Shown: piece after piece, positions 15,747-43,666 of the stretch
How the letters are laid out: each line of letters starts with the position of its first letter
Numbering within the stretch: position 1 is the first letter of the stretch
From: Candidatus Woesearchaeota archaeon
Lineage (GTDB): Archaea; Nanobdellota; Nanobdellia; Woesearchaeales; JABMPP01
Assembly (NCBI GenBank): GCA_018303405.1
Contig: JAGVYD010000017.1
Coordinates: 1-64,000 of the forward strand
Direction: 5' to 3'
Length of the DNA stretch: 64,000 nt
Translations under genes and position numbers: made by a program
The notes under the pieces: model-generated
What the model saw: the letters and a program-made list of their open reading frames with translations, nothing else
Database searches by the model: none
Told to the model about the DNA's origin: nothing

Positions 15747-15871
15747 TGCGGGAGGAGGGATTTGAACCCCCGAACCCACTAAGGGACAGGATAACATAAA
15801 GGAAAAATCACAACATGTGCTGTGTGCCCCTCTTAAGTCCTGCACGTTTGGCCAGGCTTCGCTACTCCCGC
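15747..15871 (-). tRNA. tRNA-Leu (anticodon UAA) with 39-base intron
   Basis: On the minus strand the acceptor GCGGGAG pairs with CTCCCGC and the discriminator is A. The D arm has a normal CTGGC loop. The anticodon stem is CAGGA/TCCTG with anticodon TAA. A variable arm with a CCC/GGG stem and the T arm GGGGG-TTCAAAT-CCCTC complete a class II leucine tRNA. An insert of about 39 bases lies after position 37 (about 15793-15831), the usual archaeal splice site. CCA is not encoded. Confidence 0.9.
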
Positions 15872-16210: not shown

Positions 16211-16942
16211 CTAAGTCAGAAAAGTGCCCCACTTTGTCCTGTTGATTGTGGGCTCGGGCTCCTTGGGCCCGCCACCGTCTTTCTCGTCTGGCTGAGGCAA
16301 TGGAAAATGCCTGTGCAGGTACTCAAAGATTTTCTGCCCGAATGCATGCAGCTCCCTTGGGTCCAAATAGAGGGGATAGTCTGGGTCGATGACTGCGGGC
16401 TTTCGGCTCCATTGCGATATGGTTATTGAAAAATCAGAATAATAAATGCTGCGCATCCTCAAATCCGCGGCGTCTATATGGTAAGGCATCCCCATTGAGT
16501 CCAGCAGGCATTCGCCTTTCATCTTTTCCAGATCCATATGGAGATCAACTTTGTTGCCCTTCTCCGTTATTCCGGACAGCATCAGCTGTAACTTTTCGTC
16601 GATGGGCGAAGGCACATCCCCTCTGTTAAGTGTACGGTAAACCTTTGTAAAGCGGAAGAAAGCCGGCATTTCCTCCTTCACTGCCCTGTCTTTTATTTTT
16701 TCCACCATCGCATCATAGTCTAGGTGGGCCATCATGACAGCAGTATCAATCGAGCCAATAATCAGCTCCTTGTCGCTCCGTGGGGGCCATGAGTCTCTTT
16801 TTGCGAATCCAGCGCCTGCCAGCAGCGTTGTCCCTGCAGCATAGCCTGCCAGGAGAATGAGCCCGTTCCCTATGAATTTCCGCCTGCCATAGTCGGTAGA
16901 TTGCTGCTTCTGAGGCGTGATGTATCTCTGTTCTTCCCCCAT
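16211..16942 (-). CDS. Protein with a twin-arginine-like signal, unknown function
   Basis: The 243-residue protein has GRRKFIGNG at about residues 19-27, then a hydrophobic stretch (LILLAGYAAGTTLLAGAGFA). This is close to a Tat signal (S/T-R-R-x-F-L-K), though the consensus Ser/Thr is Gly. If exported by Tat it would be secreted folded, probably with a cofactor or membrane tether. The rest has no recognised domain. It includes YHIDAADLRMRSIYYSDFS, a proline-rich region and a short basic end. Confidence 0.55.
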   Translation of the reverse strand: MGEEQRYITPQKQQSTDYGRRKFIGNGLILLAGYAAGTTLLAGAGFAKRDSWPPRSDKELIIGSIDTAVMMAHLDYDAMVEKIKDRAVKEEMPAFFRFTKVYRTLNRGDVPSPIDEKLQLMLSGITEKGNKVDLHMDLEKMKGECLLDSMGMPYHIDAADLRMRSIYYSDFSITISQWSRKPAVIDPDYPLYLDPRELHAFGQKIFEYLHRHFPLPQPDEKDGGGPKEPEPTINRTKWGTFLT

Positions 16943-16980
16943 TGGTTTTAATCTGATGCATGTTGTTTATAAAGTTTTTA

Positions 16981-17142
16981 CCATCCTGGGCTTAGTAGAA
17001 AAGTTTACGTTTTGCCATCAATTCTGCGAGCATCTGGAAATAAGGCAGACAGCAGTTTTCGGAGTTCCAGGGAGAAAACTGCCCTCGCCGATGGCAAAAC
17101 CTGAGCCTTCAGGCGAAGTTTTCTACTAAGCTCCATCCTGGG
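16981..17142 (+). repeat. Nested-palindrome element, copy C, with 10-bp target-site duplication
   Basis: Three nested stems are perfect. The outer is CTTAGTAGAAAA/TTTTCTACTAAG (16991-17002 with 17119-17130). The middle is GTTTTGCCATC/GATGGCAAAAC (17009-17019 with 17090-17100). The inner is GCAGTTTTC/GAAAACTGC (17052-17060 with 17074-17082). Unpaired segments AATTCTGCGA and GGAGTTCCAGGG are shared with copy A. A GCC-TTCA-GGC mini-hairpin (17105-17114) lies inside the outer stem on the right. CCATCCTGGG flanks the element at 16981-16990 and 17133-17142. Confidence 0.75.
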
Positions 17143-17216
17143 GGAAGTCAACGTTCATTTTCAGTAACTTTATAAACAGTTTTTAGATTCTAAGAGCGGG
17201 CAAATAGTGTATTTAT

Positions 17217-17329
17217 GCCTCTGTAGCATAGATAGCTATCCTTTCTCTAGAGAAAGGATAGAACCCAAAGAGTCCTCCCCTTCGGGTCGAGGATTTGCTT
17301 TGCAAATCATAAACGCCTCTGTAGCATAG
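17217..17329 (+). repeat. Hairpin cluster between duplicated tRNA-Thr 5' ends
   Basis: The first 15 bases of the tRNA-Thr gene (GCCTCTGTAGCATAG) also occur at 17217-17231. Between the copies lie a 26-base perfect palindrome (CTATCCTTTCTCT at 17236-17248 with its complement to 17261), a TCCTC/GAGGA stem containing CCC-TTC-GGG (17273-17293), and a GATTTGC-TTT-GCAAATC hairpin (17292-17308). It may be an insertion into the tRNA gene that regenerated the 5' end, or a decayed tandem tRNA copy. Confidence 0.6.
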
Positions 17330-17404
17330 TAGCCATTGCGCGTCCTTGGTATTCAATTGAAGACAAATAGGACGAGGTCGAGGGTGCAACTCCCTCCAGA
17401 GGCT
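17315..17404 (+). tRNA. tRNA-Thr (anticodon GGU) with 17-base intron
   Basis: Acceptor GCCTCTG pairs perfectly with CAGAGGC (17397-17403), and the discriminator is U, as in archaeal tRNA-Thr. The anticodon stem is CGTCC/GGACG (17341-17345 with 17370-17374). The 24-base loop reads TTGGTA then 17 extra bases then A, giving anticodon GGT and an intron after position 37. T arm: GAGGG-TGCAACT-CCCTC. The elbow is unusual: the D loop lacks the GG pair (AGTAGCCAT) and position 55 of the T loop is G. A T9 run follows at 17414-17422. It could be functional with a non-standard elbow, or decaying. Confidence 0.75.
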
Positions 17405-17413
17405 TCATATCAA

Positions 17414-17422
17414 TTTTTTTTT
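17414..17422 (+). terminator. Oligo-T terminator after tRNA-Thr
   Basis: A T9 run begins 10 bases after the tRNA end, which is typical of archaeal intrinsic termination. No hairpin is needed. Confidence 0.5.
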
Positions 17423-17595
17423 AGGCATGGCGCCAGGACAATTCTTTTATAGCAAATCACTTTAATAATCGGAACTTTGTTCCTAACGAATAAGTGATTT
17501 GCTTATTAGGAAATAACCTTGCACTCATTTCAAAACATACAAACATTTGTCCGGATATCAAAAAAATTTAAATATATGGCAATGAAATTAATTCC

Positions 17596-18327
17596 ATGTC
17601 AGAAATCAAGACTGTTTTAATCAGTGGCGGCACAAGCGGCATGGGCAGGGCCTGTGTTTTTAAGTTTCTGGAAGCCGGGCATAATGTGGCTACATTTGCA
17701 AGGTCCGGGGACAGCTGCAAAGCACTGGAAAAAGAGCTTGGCGGAAAATTTCCGCAGGCCTCATACCTTGTCCTGCAGGGTGACGTGACTGATGAGGCTA
17801 GTGTGGCAATCATTGTCCAGAAAACTGTAAAGAAATTTGGCGCAATCGACATTCTTGTCAACAATGCAGGGCGGGGCCTGTTTGAGACTATTGACACCAT
17901 CAAGCCCGGGGATTATTTAAATCTTCTAAATGTCAACCTTATTGGCGTGGCCCTGCTAAGCAAGCACGCTGTTCAATCCATGAAAAAGAAAAAAACAGGG
18001 CACATCATAAACATCGCATCGATTTCAGGAAAGGAGTCCGGGCCAGGCCGTGAGTTTTACAGCGCATCCAAATATGGGGTAATGGGCTTCTCTGAAGGAT
18101 TGAGGAAAGAACTTAATGACTTTGAAATCAAGGTCACCACAATATGCCCCGGAATGGTCAAAACTGGCTTTTTCAGCCAGCATGAACTGCGGAGGAGAAA
18201 AACCGCAAACAAGGGCAAGCTTCCGCTTATGCTTCGGCCAGAGGAAATTGCCTCGGCAATATACTTCATTGCCTCTCAGCCAGGGCATGTCGCAATTACT
18301 GACATCACAATACTGCCATTTGGATGA
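17596..18327 (+). CDS. Short-chain dehydrogenase/reductase (SDR)
   Basis: The 243-residue classical SDR has the cofactor loop ISGGTSGMGRACV near residue 10, the NNAG motif (ILVNNAGRG), the catalytic Ser in IASISGKESG and Y-x-x-x-K in FYSASKYGVMGF. Late motifs ICPGMVKTGFF and RPEEIASAIYFIASQP are also present. The first loop and the absence of an acidic residue at the end of the second strand (FARSG) suggest NADP(H) preference; the substrate is unknown. A TATA-like AAAATTTAAATATA at about 17565-17578 gives a leaderless start. Confidence 0.9.
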   Translation: MSEIKTVLISGGTSGMGRACVFKFLEAGHNVATFARSGDSCKALEKELGGKFPQASYLVLQGDVTDEASVAIIVQKTVKKFGAIDILVNNAGRGLFETIDTIKPGDYLNLLNVNLIGVALLSKHAVQSMKKKKTGHIINIASISGKESGPGREFYSASKYGVMGFSEGLRKELNDFEIKVTTICPGMVKTGFFSQHELRRRKTANKGKLPLMLRPEEIASAIYFIASQPGHVAITDITILPFG

Positions 18328-18404
18328 CAGGCTGGGCATTTTTGAGTGCAGTCCATCATATGCCGCTCCATTTTAGACAAAATCCAAGCCCTTCATCTAC
18401 CAAA

Positions 18405-18413
18405 AAATATATA
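18405..18413 (+). promoter_or_regulatory. TATA box setting the start of the 18438 gene
   Basis: AAATATATA lies 25-33 bases before ATG 18438. This supports that start over the upstream TTG/ATG-like codons that overlap the SDR gene. Confidence 0.5.
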
Positions 18414-18437
18414 ATCCGCTTTAGAAACAATTGCTCC

Positions 18438-19817
18438 ATGGCTACAAATGCAGTGCAGCGAAGGGCTTTGCACATGAGGGCAGCAAAGCTTTTCAGGATT
18501 TATGATGTTCTCAGGGCGGAAAAGGCAAAATTGAACAGCATCGCAGCAAGGCTGCTGCCCCATGCAGAAGAGCTGGCCAATAGTGTTGACACCGGCGATA
18601 TAGCCTCCAGGCTCACCTTCCTGAATGTCAGTGCAGTTGAGCTCGAACTCCTTACAAATGCCATACAGCATGAAATTGCATTCTGGAAAATCGTCAAGGC
18701 AGATATCGATGCCCTTGTGCAGGACAGGAAACAGTTCAGTGGCCTGTCAGGCTCCGGCGCAGAGGCAAATGCGGGCATCCTGCGGACAGTGATGCTCAAC
18801 ATCGACAAGCTTCACAAGATGCTCAATGCATCGTTCAACAAGCCGCGCAACAACCTGCTCGCAATTCTTGAAAAACAGCTGATTGCTGCTGAACGGCATC
18901 GCTGGCAGGACTACCAGGAATACTACAGGCGTGAGCAAAACCTGTTCCGGGATTTCACCTTAATGCGGGATGATGTCGAGAAGCTCAAGGGGATTCTCCC
19001 AGACTATGCAGTCAAACTCTCAAGGCAGGCAATGGCAAAGCGCGCTGGCATGATTACCGGTGTAATGGTCGTTGTTCTGCTTGCCAACTCAATAATTGGC
19101 GGTTATTTCTCTAACAAAGGCATCTTCCCTGGCGATGATAAAGGCCAGGTTGTCCAGGTCATTCAGGGCGGTGAGAGAATCCACATCCCAAATAATCTGG
19201 ATATCGACAATCAGGCAACGCTGGTTGAAATTGGCGCAATCATGTCAGGGGTGAAGTTTGACTATGATTTCAAGGGGATAAAGGCAGTGGGCGATAGGGA
19301 TATCGAAATTGACAAAGGATATTTCGGCGACTATGAATACAAAACCGCGCACGCATCAGCAATTGACTCGGCGCATATCCCTGCCTTAATCAGAAAAATT
19401 GGCTCAGCAAAATTAATGGGCACTGAGGTTGACTGGCTTGGCAGCAAATTCAAGGGGATAATGGGCACTTATCAGGATGAAACGCTGAGGATATGGCATG
19501 ATGGCTGGAGAAGCTATTTTGTCGAGACATGGAAAGGCGGCAAAAAGGCATCATTCCTGGAGATTTTTGTCATCGGCGGGAAAGTGGGCATAGTCAAGCT
19601 TCTGAAAAATGATGGCTCCGGGTATTATGTGATCCGCGGCACAACAGCCAGGGCTTTGGAGCACAATGGCGGCGGCATGTACCGTGAGCGTGACCAGGGA
19701 TTGGGCAGCAAATGGAAAAGCCCCTTCATCCAGGGCATTGACACGGATTCAAACGGAAGCGACATCATAAGCCAGGCCGAGCATATTGTATCGATTTGCT
19801 CGAACCTCCTCAAATAA
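18438..19817 (+). CDS. Large membrane-anchored protein, unknown function
   Basis: The product is 459 residues from ATG 18438, chosen from the TATA position; a longer reading frame opens at 18324. The N-terminal 200 residues are helical and charged (coiled-coil-like, with LNSIAARLLPHAEELANSV and MLNIDKLHKMLNASF). A single transmembrane helix follows (MITGVMVVVLLANSIIGGYF). The C-terminal 240-residue domain (SGVKFDYDFKGIKAVGDRDIEI ... WHDGWRSYFVETWKGGKK) has no recognised fold. A cytoplasmic coiled coil with an external domain is the likely topology. No homologue is recognised. Confidence 0.6.
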   Translation: MATNAVQRRALHMRAAKLFRIYDVLRAEKAKLNSIAARLLPHAEELANSVDTGDIASRLTFLNVSAVELELLTNAIQHEIAFWKIVKADIDALVQDRKQFSGLSGSGAEANAGILRTVMLNIDKLHKMLNASFNKPRNNLLAILEKQLIAAERHRWQDYQEYYRREQNLFRDFTLMRDDVEKLKGILPDYAVKLSRQAMAKRAGMITGVMVVVLLANSIIGGYFSNKGIFPGDDKGQVVQVIQGGERIHIPNNLDIDNQATLVEIGAIMSGVKFDYDFKGIKAVGDRDIEIDKGYFGDYEYKTAHASAIDSAHIPALIRKIGSAKLMGTEVDWLGSKFKGIMGTYQDETLRIWHDGWRSYFVETWKGGKKASFLEIFVIGGKVGIVKLLKNDGSGYYVIRGTTARALEHNGGGMYRERDQGLGSKWKSPFIQGIDTDSNGSDIISQAEHIVSICSNLLK

Positions 19818-19820
19818 TTT

Positions 19821-20001
19821 CTATTCGCCGGCTTTGCTCGAAAAGTCAGTTTGGGCATCAATTTTGCGAAGCCCATTTCCAGAGGGATTATGCATTTTTC
19901 GGGGTTGCAGAGGAGAAAAATGCAATTCGAGAGAAGCTGCAATGCTGAGCGGATGCCCAAACCGGGCCGAAAGGCGGGTTTTCGGGCAAACCCTATTGGC
20001 C
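19821..20001 (+). repeat. Nested-palindrome element, copy A, with imperfect target-site duplication
   Basis: Outer stem TTTGCTCGAAAA with TTTTCGGGCAAA (19833-19844 with 19979-19990; the single non-Watson-Crick position is G-U in plus-strand RNA). Middle stem GTTTGGGCATC/GATGCCCAAAC (19849-19859 with 19952-19962). Inner stem TGCATTTTTC/GAAAAATGCA (19891-19900 with 19915-19924). The unpaired AATTTTGCGA and GGGGTTGCAGAG segments match copy C. A GCC-GAAA-GGC mini-hairpin lies at 19966-19975. CTATTCGCC (19821-19829) and CTATTGGCC (19993-20001) flank it. Confidence 0.75.
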
Positions 20002-20052
20002 TCGCATCACCAAGCGAAAATTTAATTTACTTTAAAATACAAATCCCTGCTC

Positions 20053-20739
20053 ATGGAGGAGACCGTGCCCAAAGCTGATGGCCTGCAGAGAAAAAAAAGG
20101 CGCAAATCAGTAATTGCCTCTGCTGCACTTGCATTGATGCTCTATATCATCATCTTTGTGATGAAATTTCCTTACAAGACAATCTCCACCCCTGTTTTTG
20201 ACAACCAATCTTACATTGAATCGAAGCAGCAGGAGGAAGAATGCATCACCCGGCCATACAGGTTTGAGGACGCCTTTATCACAAATTCGCCATGGAAGAA
20301 AAACGGAACCAGCCTAACGCCAACGCTGATGCTGAAAAACCTCGAGGGCACAGCAGGAAAATTCACAGTGCAGATTGCCTTTTTCAATAGGGATACTTAC
20401 CCGTGGAGTTCGGTAAATGGAGGGAACCCCAATGCAAAAGTGGAAAAGGCTGACATCTACAGCGGCAAAGTCGAAGTCACAATCCCAGCTGGTGTTATAG
20501 AGGAAATTGAAATCATGACAGATATGCATAATGACACTGACAATTTCTGGGCAGAGGACATTATTACCCCTCCTTACCTGACTGAGTGCCTATCTACCAC
20601 TCATTACATCAACCAGACAAGGGCACAAAAAGTGCAAACCTCATGGGCAAAAACAAGAATCAGGGCAACAATCTGGCAGATGGCAACAGGAACTTATGAG
20701 GAGCCAGGAATTGATGAATTTACTTATTTGCAGACCTGA
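20053..20739 (+). CDS. Single-pass membrane protein, unknown function
   Basis: The 228-residue protein has a short basic N-terminus (LQRKKRRKS) and one transmembrane helix at about 19-38 (VIASAALALMLYIIIFVM). An external beta-rich domain of about 185 residues follows (LTPTLMLKNLEGTAGKFTVQIAFFNRD ... YSGKVEVTIPAGVIEEIEI), in which the pattern of strands and the phrase on filling out a missing force resemble Ig-like or FxLYD-type domains. Two cysteines (ECITRP and TECLSTT) could form a disulfide. It lies just after palindromic element copy A. Confidence 0.55.
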   Translation: MEETVPKADGLQRKKRRKSVIASAALALMLYIIIFVMKFPYKTISTPVFDNQSYIESKQQEEECITRPYRFEDAFITNSPWKKNGTSLTPTLMLKNLEGTAGKFTVQIAFFNRDTYPWSSVNGGNPNAKVEKADIYSGKVEVTIPAGVIEEIEIMTDMHNDTDNFWAEDIITPPYLTECLSTTHYINQTRAQKVQTSWAKTRIRATIWQMATGTYEEPGIDEFTYLQT

Positions 20740-42669: not shown

Positions 42670-42741
42670 TGGGGTCGCTATCACTATCCTTGGGCTTTAA
42701 CTCGCGCATTTTAAATTCGTGGCCATTTTTGCAGCGGCTTT

Positions 42742-42830
42742 ATTTTTCCTCCTCTGCAGCCCCAAAAATGCTTAACCACTCCCTGAATGAGCTTCGCAAA
42801 ATTGATGCCCAAACTAATTTTTCGGGCAAA
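42742..42830 (-). repeat. Nested-palindrome element, decayed copy B (minus strand)
   Basis: Read on the minus strand, the copy begins with TTTGCCCGAAAA (42819-42830) and continues GTTTGGGCATC (42804-42814), AATTTTGCGAAGC and then GCATTTTTGGGGCTGCAGAGGAGG. These are nearly identical to copy A up to the inner loop. The right halves of the middle and outer stems were not found, so this is a truncated or decayed copy. It fills the gap between the coiled-coil gene and 42887. Confidence 0.6.
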
Positions 42831-42886
42831 GCCCGTCTTTTGGCAAAATATTTAAACAACAGCCAAATTATCAGGTCAGTGATACA

Positions 42887-43666
42887 ATGGGCATGGCTGG
42901 ACTTGTTTTTGGGATTGTCATTGTCGGTGTGCTGGTTGCATGCTGTTTTATCTATATCAGGAGAAAACTTCTCGCCTATATCGCGGCAAATGCCGTGATA
43001 TTTGTCGCAATAGCCCTTCTCGCTTTCCTCGTGTTCAGGGACCTGAGCGATCTGCAGGAGAAATTTCCGGTTGAGCAAAAGCTGTTCCTTCCAATGCACA
43101 ATGACGAATATTGCGGCGCATTCACTGCGCGAAGCCTTGACGAATCCATTGTTTACCTTGGCGAGCAGGAGCTGTCTGCATTGCAGGGCAAAATAACTGC
43201 AAATGGGGTTGGCTCACTTGGCTCAGAATATTATAAAGTCATCCTTATAAAATCCGATGCCCTTGCAGGGACAGGCTCATTTGTCACCGAGGATATTGCC
43301 CTTACAGAATCCGAGGCATTCTCAATCCTTGACAGCCCGTCGCCAATTTCAACTTATGTGGAATTGTATCTTGGAAAAGAATTTGGCCAGGATTATGACG
43401 CGCAGCTGGCAGGAAATATTGAATCAGAAATACACGAAATCTACCCGAATGGATGTGCATTCAAAGGCGCGATTTTCAGGGCAATGTTCGGCTCGGCCAT
43501 GCAGAGCCACGGGGGAATCTACCTTGTCACTGAATACAAAAAAGGAAATATCCAGTTTTATCCAGAGACCATATCATTTTCCCTGATAAGGCTTATACCG
43601 ACGAAAATATTCATCCCATTGGCACGCTCCCTGGTTGAGGATGCTGGCATGGAGCCAATACAGTAG
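42887..43666 (+). CDS. Two-TM membrane protein, unknown function
   Basis: The 259-residue protein has two N-terminal transmembrane helices (LVFGIVIVGVLVACCFIYI and IAANAVIFVAIALLAFLVF), then an external domain of about 210 residues with ELSALQGKITANGVGSLGSEYY and acidic loops, and a C-terminal basic-aromatic segment. TATA: AAAATATTTAAAC at about 42843-42855. No known family. Confidence 0.55.
   Translation: MGMAGLVFGIVIVGVLVACCFIYIRRKLLAYIAANAVIFVAIALLAFLVFRDLSDLQEKFPVEQKLFLPMHNDEYCGAFTARSLDESIVYLGEQELSALQGKITANGVGSLGSEYYKVILIKSDALAGTGSFVTEDIALTESEAFSILDSPSPISTYVELYLGKEFGQDYDAQLAGNIESEIHEIYPNGCAFKGAIFRAMFGSAMQSHGGIYLVTEYKKGNIQFYPETISFSLIRLIPTKIFIPLARSLVEDAGMEPIQ

Follow-up and report, generated by a model that had tools for sequence, protein, structure and literature searches.

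Short folded non-coding elements inserted at a fixed distance from core promoters in Woesearchaeales archaea

Miniature inverted-repeat transposable elements (MITEs) of prokaryotes, such as Correia, QMITE2 and the MITEs of Sulfolobus, are short, non-coding, intergenic and foldable sequences with terminal inverted repeats (TIRs) that are moved in trans by insertion sequences (ISs), QMITE2 being flanked by direct repeats of 7-9 bp (PMC10969869). Insertion next to promoters has been described in bacteria for TnGBS, ISLre2 and some ISKra4 (p-MULT 3 and part of p-MULT 4), which have sigma-A promoters as targets and insert upstream of them (15-17 bases ahead of the -35 in TnGBS and its related ISs), mostly in one orientation and with Mutator-type transposases (PMC3942029). 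In archaea, a preference for AT-rich, possibly promoter DNA has been proposed for ISH6 (p-MULT 2; PMC3942029). Here we analyse a family of short dispersed elements noticed in a stretch of 64,000 nucleotides (hereafter the window; positions 1 to 64,000 of contig JAGVYD010000017.1, assembly GCA_018303405.1) from a Candidatus Woesearchaeota archaeon of the order Woesearchaeales, in which two copies, A and C, and a decayed third copy are found.

Like MITEs, these elements are short, multi-copy and non-coding, carry TIRs and are flanked by 9-bp duplications, with empty sites in sister species. Unlike the prokaryotic MITEs described, they retain a covarying core fold in more than 30 genera and keep a fixed spacing to the core promoter; TATA is not mentioned in the text of the MITE review (PMC10969869). 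With TnGBS, ISLre2 and ISKra4 they share a fixed short distance upstream of a promoter whose core is spared, whereas they differ in the archaeal promoter involved, composed of a transcription factor B (TFB) recognition element (BRE) and a TATA box, in an IS5-type partner and in the lack of a clear orientation preference. They work like TnGBS and ISLre2 but are not members of those groups, from which transposase family, promoter type and orientation separate them. ISH6 duplicates the AT-rich motif AANATNTT itself, while here the TATA box lies outside a duplication with little sequence preference. No promoter-targeting archaeal transposon was found in our searches of the open-access literature, within which the family is apparently the first from archaea to integrate at a fixed distance from a BRE/TATA core promoter. 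The data support a dispersed, mobile, non-coding element that has a fold under selection and is flanked by target-site duplications.

Family, target duplications and insertion sites

All searches used R1, a covariance model (164 positions, 45 pairs) derived from an alignment of 31 copies in three subfamilies, and copies were studied in stretches taken around the matches; remote members are probably undercounted (at most eight candidates were scored per genome order-wide). In the 1.6 Mb genome of the window, R1 gave 53 non-overlapping matches, some of them partial, and BLAST with copies C and A recovered further full copies elsewhere in the genome. Matches (E <= 0.001), nearly all of full model length, were present in 46 of 353 genomes and 33 of 220 genera of the same order, amounting to well over 100 copies, and the 11 matching genomes of a class-wide sample of 378 all belonged to that order (11/11). 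The family is thus far larger than the three copies of the original prediction, reaching 45 genomes besides that of the window, and compensation in the stems holds in the enlarged set. The relatives compared included no further genome from the family or genus of the window's organism. Core patterns or copy A, run against viral contigs, plasmids and named genomes, revealed no element; of two pattern matches among genome contigs, L067 proved to lack the element when read and L068 was taken as chance.

At least three subfamilies (A, B and C) can be distinguished, with ends GGCYTTGYCCGAAAA, GGCKCTGYCCAGA and GGCTTAGYAGAAAAG respectively, and the R1 search of the genome brought several further ones. 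Their TIRs are of GGC type and most copies measure ~145-165 bp, reaching ~300 with apical-loop inserts. As had been predicted, coding capacity is absent: the elements contain no open reading frame (ORF) and are too short to encode a transposase.

Mobility, proposed earlier from the flanking repeats, is borne out by 9-bp duplications and by empty sites. The repeats themselves are real, with a length of 9 bp and not the 10 first reported (CCATCCTGG at copy C, CTATTCGCC/CTATTGGCC at copy A). Duplications matching at 8/9 or better flank 33 of 43 curated copies of the window's genome and 51 of 80 copies in other genomes, against a chance of ~0.3% per copy with shifts allowed for. Empty sites in sister species were identified for three loci, the elements of genomes G147, G148 and G152. 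For that of G147, sister species G163 carries the same 600 bp at 94-95% identity (the 95% being the best flank identity obtained) but lacks the 162-bp element and has the duplicated sequence only once. For those of G148 and G152, empty sites were found in three or more species apiece. Since the empty sites already contain BRE and TATA, the promoter predates the insertion.

The most informative property of the family, a fixed distance from BRE and TATA, was absent from the original prediction, as was the IS5-family partner considered below. A TATA box (TTTAWAWA at 7/8 or better, starting 13-17 bases from the element end) accompanies 38 of 43 own copies, compared with 9.9% of intergenic control positions; among copies in other genomes the figures are 64 of 80 and 11.8%. 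Overall, 105 of 131 copies have such a TATA, 98 of these on one side only; the modal offset is 15, taken exactly by 59 of the 105, and other offset bins hold few copies. The logo of element ends displays almost no preference within the 9-bp duplication, then adenines at positions 12 and 13 (0.83 each), the expected places of the BRE adenines, which were not used in site choice, and TTTAWAWA from position 16, the duplication lying directly upstream of the BRE. The start codon is often found 29-31 bases past the TATA start, the spacing of leaderless archaeal genes, which indicates that the promoters are real. Orientation relative to the promoter has no clear preference (own genome, 17 L and 24 R; others, 39 L and 25 R). 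Judged from their translations, the genes targeted include those for ribosomal protein L11 (L115), aIF2-beta (L104) and an asparagine synthase-like protein (L148), and insertions part housekeeping promoters (L11, aIF2-beta and a carA-like gene) from their upstream DNA. Given the size of the family, its insertion sites could by themselves help to locate promoters in uncultured archaea.

Several variants were recorded among the copies. An additional two-hairpin insert of ~55 nt or more occupies the apical loop of some B and C copies, its sequence differing between the two while the plan is kept, and inserts of ~35-140 nt forming further hairpins (L065:219-523, L064, L007-L011, L184, L159, L109, L112, L181) are found in that position of the loop in subfamilies and genomes unrelated to one another. 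Elements with another type of end (TGTAYGTAATAAG..) and the same core were seen at L099:624-780, L110, L114 and L181, with a TATA offset that looks shorter (12-13 in three of four), which suggests that another IS supplies ends of this type. At G000:C3 32263-32494 (L003, L059) a C-type copy adjoins an A-type fragment at its end, as though one element had gone in next to another or within it. The copies at L054 (G000:C21) and L006 lack one terminal repeat, as if an end had been lost after insertion, the 9-bp duplication of L054 being still present at both sides. Near-identical copies with end GGCTTCATCCATTTAATG lie at contig ends of G130 (C4, C5, C6, C31, C42; L178, L258-L260), suggesting recent activity or amplification.

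Candidate mobilisers and proposed mechanism

Comparison of ISs in other genomes points to an IS5-family transposase as the likely mobiliser. A protein matching PF01609 (DDE_Tnp_1) is encoded in 10 of 25 other element-bearing genomes. When transposase loci were scanned for GG..CC ends with a duplication, only the IS of L242 was retrieved (1467-2370, genome G277): 904 bp long, with a perfect 17-bp inverted repeat GGCTCTGTCCTGAATCT, it is flanked by the duplication GGTTTTATG (9/9) and sits at TATA offset 15 upstream of a gene with a carA-like translation. Its inverted repeat bears GGCTCTGTCC, the same ten bases with which elements most commonly begin (18/131). A second IS, L245 in G132 (944 bp, ends GGCGCATCCGGAA), has an IS5-like ORF and again TATA at offset 15, and the ends of a third IS5-like element, L238 in G174, resemble subfamily C, neither duplication nor TATA being found there. 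The three transposases match PF01609 above the cut-off; unlike IS5 as described, their best NCBIfam match, transpos_IS5_2, scores 135, 96 and 76, below the cut-off of 140. They are otherwise like the IS903 group in their IS5-type DDE transposase and length of ~0.9-1.05 kb. A 9-bp duplication is listed for the IS903 group of the IS5 family (table in PMC3281130). Such a duplication was found complete at L242, as 8 bp at L245 and not at L238. Targeting of BRE/TATA by IS5 was not found described in the literature searches made. The end GGCTTTGTTGAA, which we presume to be that of IS903, is similar and is taken only as a lead.

We consider it quite probable that the elements are non-autonomous, promoter-targeted, MITE-like DNA transposons moved in trans by IS5-family enzymes. 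Under this proposal, an IS5-family DDE transposase would recognise the inverted repeats of the element and cut the DNA with a 9-bp stagger at the upstream boundary of the BRE, being tethered to or steered by TFB and the TATA-binding protein (TBP) on the promoter, or else reading BRE/TATA DNA directly. TFB contacts DNA at the upstream edge of the BRE, and a cut at this place fits tethering or steric steering without proving either. The core promoter would be left intact and only the upstream DNA displaced, by ~170 bp, so that an insertion should cost the host little; the element can accordingly spread without breaking genes or core promoters. Archaeal TBP and TFB are homologues of the eukaryotic factors that guide Ty3, which makes the elements a simple system for direct tests of tethering.

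Several observations weigh against this proposal. No PF01609 protein was detected in the window's genome at the threshold used; its copies may be immobile now, or their transposase may lie in the part that the 95%-complete assembly does not cover. The IS that joins the GGCTCTGTCC end to the target spacing sits in a genome other than the window's, and the frame of its IS5-like transposase is broken by in-frame stops; the duplication of L245 is shifted by one base. ISs and elements have only their ends in common, the core being carried by no IS. MITEs need no conserved internal fold, so a covarying core is left unexplained by the mechanism alone. A good TATA at the expected offset is lacking for 26 of 131 copies, copy A included, and transposition is read here from sequence comparisons. 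In the window's genome, no autonomous copy with the same ends was found among BLAST or end-pattern matches.

Tentatively, the core could be an independent order-wide satellite, a structured module of single-stranded DNA or RNA that has acquired the ends of many IS5-type transposons and uses TBP/TFB-tethered transposition as a safe harbour; we hold this possible but less than even. It would be an archaeal counterpart of the targeting known from yeast Ty3/Tf1.

It is unlikely that a transposase of another family moves the elements, with the IS5-type copies as coincidental passengers bearing similar repeats. PF01609 is absent from 15 of the 25 other element-bearing genomes as well as from the window's, and the TATA spacing was seen on only two IS copies; yet L242 joins the same type of inverted repeat, duplication length and target spacing. 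Two candidate families were rejected as mobilisers. For IS256/Mutator, essentially absent, no PF00872 match was obtained in the own genome and one short match with some sub-threshold ones in 20 element-bearing genomes, and IS1595 does not track the elements, being present in 7 of 338 genomes, of which only G210 bears them. A short ORF that recurs in G146 (contigs C8, C25, C37 and C48; L190-L193), partly at contig ends, and weakly matches Transposase_mut is probably an unrelated multicopy element.

Fold of the core and its compensating changes

Folding energies relative to shuffled sequences (z = -4.65 for copy C, -2.0 for copy A and -0.58 for the decayed copy) are weak evidence for single copies, and the alignment is the strong evidence. 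Over 31 copies, 96.5% of cells are standard pairs, and the earlier observation that stems differ with both sides changing together is reproduced at 19 of 45 pairs, against 11.4 when shuffled and 3-5 when partners were slid by 1-3 columns. Among 90 order-wide matches, two-sided changes affect 44 of 45 pairs, with 939 doubly changed cells against 254 shuffled and at most 178 slid; this alignment was fitted to the structure, its slid and shuffled versions being far lower. As copies share descent, pair counts and binomial figures overstate independence, the slide and the off-offset bins being the safer controls. Compensation in the outermost stem (the TIR, 95.8% paired over the 90 matches) is expected of any TIR transposon, hence the case for selection on the fold comes from the inner helices alone, and it is for these that the selection on structure claimed by the original prediction is supported. 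Three helices are non-terminal: the middle helix, the helix past a G-A motif (columns 48-50/265-267), which covaries and is paired in 99.6% of cells, and the inner helix. A tandem Y-G-A-R / Y-G-A-R mismatch separates covarying helices in 82 of 90 matches; a kink-turn reading of it was dropped, because the bulge does not adjoin the G-A pairs.

The fold is kept in both orientations to neighbouring genes, which would fit a core needed for mobilisation and not by the host. Its simplest reading is that of a DNA structure acting in cis in mobilisation, with an RNA role as the alternative; less certainly than the preceding steps, the folded core would serve as a cis-acting substrate for efficient mobilisation, in the form of a single DNA strand folded on itself or of a structure bound by protein. 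What selects structure within a gene-less element is the question raised by its maintenance.

According to that alternative, which we find rather improbable, the elements are a structured non-coding RNA, acting in trans or in cis, that was dispersed by transposition and whose RNA fold is under selection. Compensation in the inner helices would be expected, as would the G-A motif on both sides and the GNRA-like mini-hairpin loops of subfamily A. G-U outnumbers A-C among paired cells (73:34 and 53:14) and, with RNA parameters, the better fold is that of the + strand in 84 of 130 copies, so that one strand seems to be the folded one; DNA parameters, however, favour the + strand at least as often (91/130). 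Moreover, G-U makes up ~2% of pairs in the wide alignment (73/3461), a share low for RNA helices, which is a hint for a DNA fold. No TATA was noticed within the element, and Rfam 15 gave no match to it, whether in the window (gathering score) or in five element loci (E<=1). Elements toward which the upstream gene is transcribed show no orientation bias (28 vs 27), and a cis-RNA role in the transcript of that gene was rejected on these counts.

Still less credit is given to the view of an ordinary MITE, whose stems would be just long, part-degenerate inverted repeats, with recognition by the transposase or palindrome correction maintaining the match, around a functionless inner fold. Both terminal repeats change together in all transposons, and short, non-coding, intergenic elements with target duplications are what MITEs are (PMC10969869). 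Palindrome correction, however, would erase asymmetric loops and G-A mismatches, both of which are kept here; the helix next to the motif covaries and stays paired, and the same core plan recurs in more than 30 genera, where it is combined with dozens of distinct terminal repeats. Finally, random insertion with survival only just upstream of promoters in a gene-dense genome is very improbable: the copies examined do sit in intergenic gaps, and selection against gene damage could enrich promoter gaps, but it would not yield a spacing peak of one to three bases, with over half of the TATA-bearing copies at exactly 15, when only ~10-12% of intergenic positions have a TATA at 13-17 and other bins hold few copies.

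Copies in the window

The shared plan described earlier for the two copies, with outer, middle and inner stems, a right-hand GCC-NNNN-GGC mini-hairpin and the conserved segments AATTYTGCGA and GGNGTTNCAG, was located in full, and the decayed copy on the other strand was recovered by R1 (Table 1). The right-hand loop of copy C is internally deleted compared with other C copies, and the final G of its left duplication can equally be counted as base 1 of the element. TATA offsets are 15 for copy C, ~17 for the decayed copy and ~27 for copy A, which breaks the 15-base rule. The TATA box at copy C belongs to gene 16211-16942(-) and starts 31 bases ahead of its ATG.

Table 1. Features of the three copies and their flanks (positions in the window)
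Feature	Position	Strand	Basis
Copy C, subfamily C, 143 bp	16990..17132	+	BLAST, alignment, R1 match 100.5 bits (16989-17132)
Copy C left target duplication, 9 bp, CCATCCTGG	16981..16989	.	sequence
Copy C right target duplication, CCATCCTGG	17133..17141	.	sequence
Copy C outer stem/TIR, left arm GCTTAGTAGAAAAG, pairs with 17119-17131	16990..17003	+	sequence, alignment
Copy C outer stem, right arm TTTTCTACTAAGC	17119..17131	+	sequence, alignment
Copy C middle stem, left arm GTTTTGCCATC, pairs with 17090-17100 GATGGCAAAAC	17009..17019	+	sequence, alignment
Copy C conserved segment AATTCTGCGA; CGA(G) is left half of tandem G-A motif	17020..17029	+	
Copy C inner hairpin GCAGTTTTC - GGAGTTCCAGGGA - GAAAACTGC	17052..17082	+	sequence, alignment
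Copy C mini-hairpin GCC-TTCA-GGC	17105..17114	+	sequence, alignment
TATA box TTTATAAA of gene 16211-16942(-)	16966..16973	-	sequence, computed distance (L001)
BRE-like AAAAAC, between copy C target duplication and TATA box	16974..16979	-	sequence; family logo AA 0.83
Copy A, subfamily A, 164 bp	19830..19993	+	BLAST, alignment, R1 match 178.6 bits (19830-19993)
Copy A middle stem	19849-19859/19952-19962		
Copy A inner hairpin	19892-19923		
Copy A mini-hairpin GCC-GAAA-GGC	19966-19975		
Copy A left target duplication CTATTCGCC	19821..19829	.	
Copy A right target duplication CTATTGGCC, base 1 common to element end	19993..20001	.	
Copy A nearest TATA-like sequence TTTAATTT, before ORF 20053-20739	20021..20028	+	
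Decayed subfamily A copy, 3'-truncated	42744..42833	-	BLAST, R1 match 32.9 bits (42693-42833)
TATA-like TTTAAACA, 17 bases past decayed copy end, before ORF 42887-43666	42851..42858	+	

Two tRNA genes of the window, at 17315-17404 (+) and 15747-15871 (-), were matched by Rfam without an ARAGORN call, and their lengths of 90 and 125 nt suggest introns.

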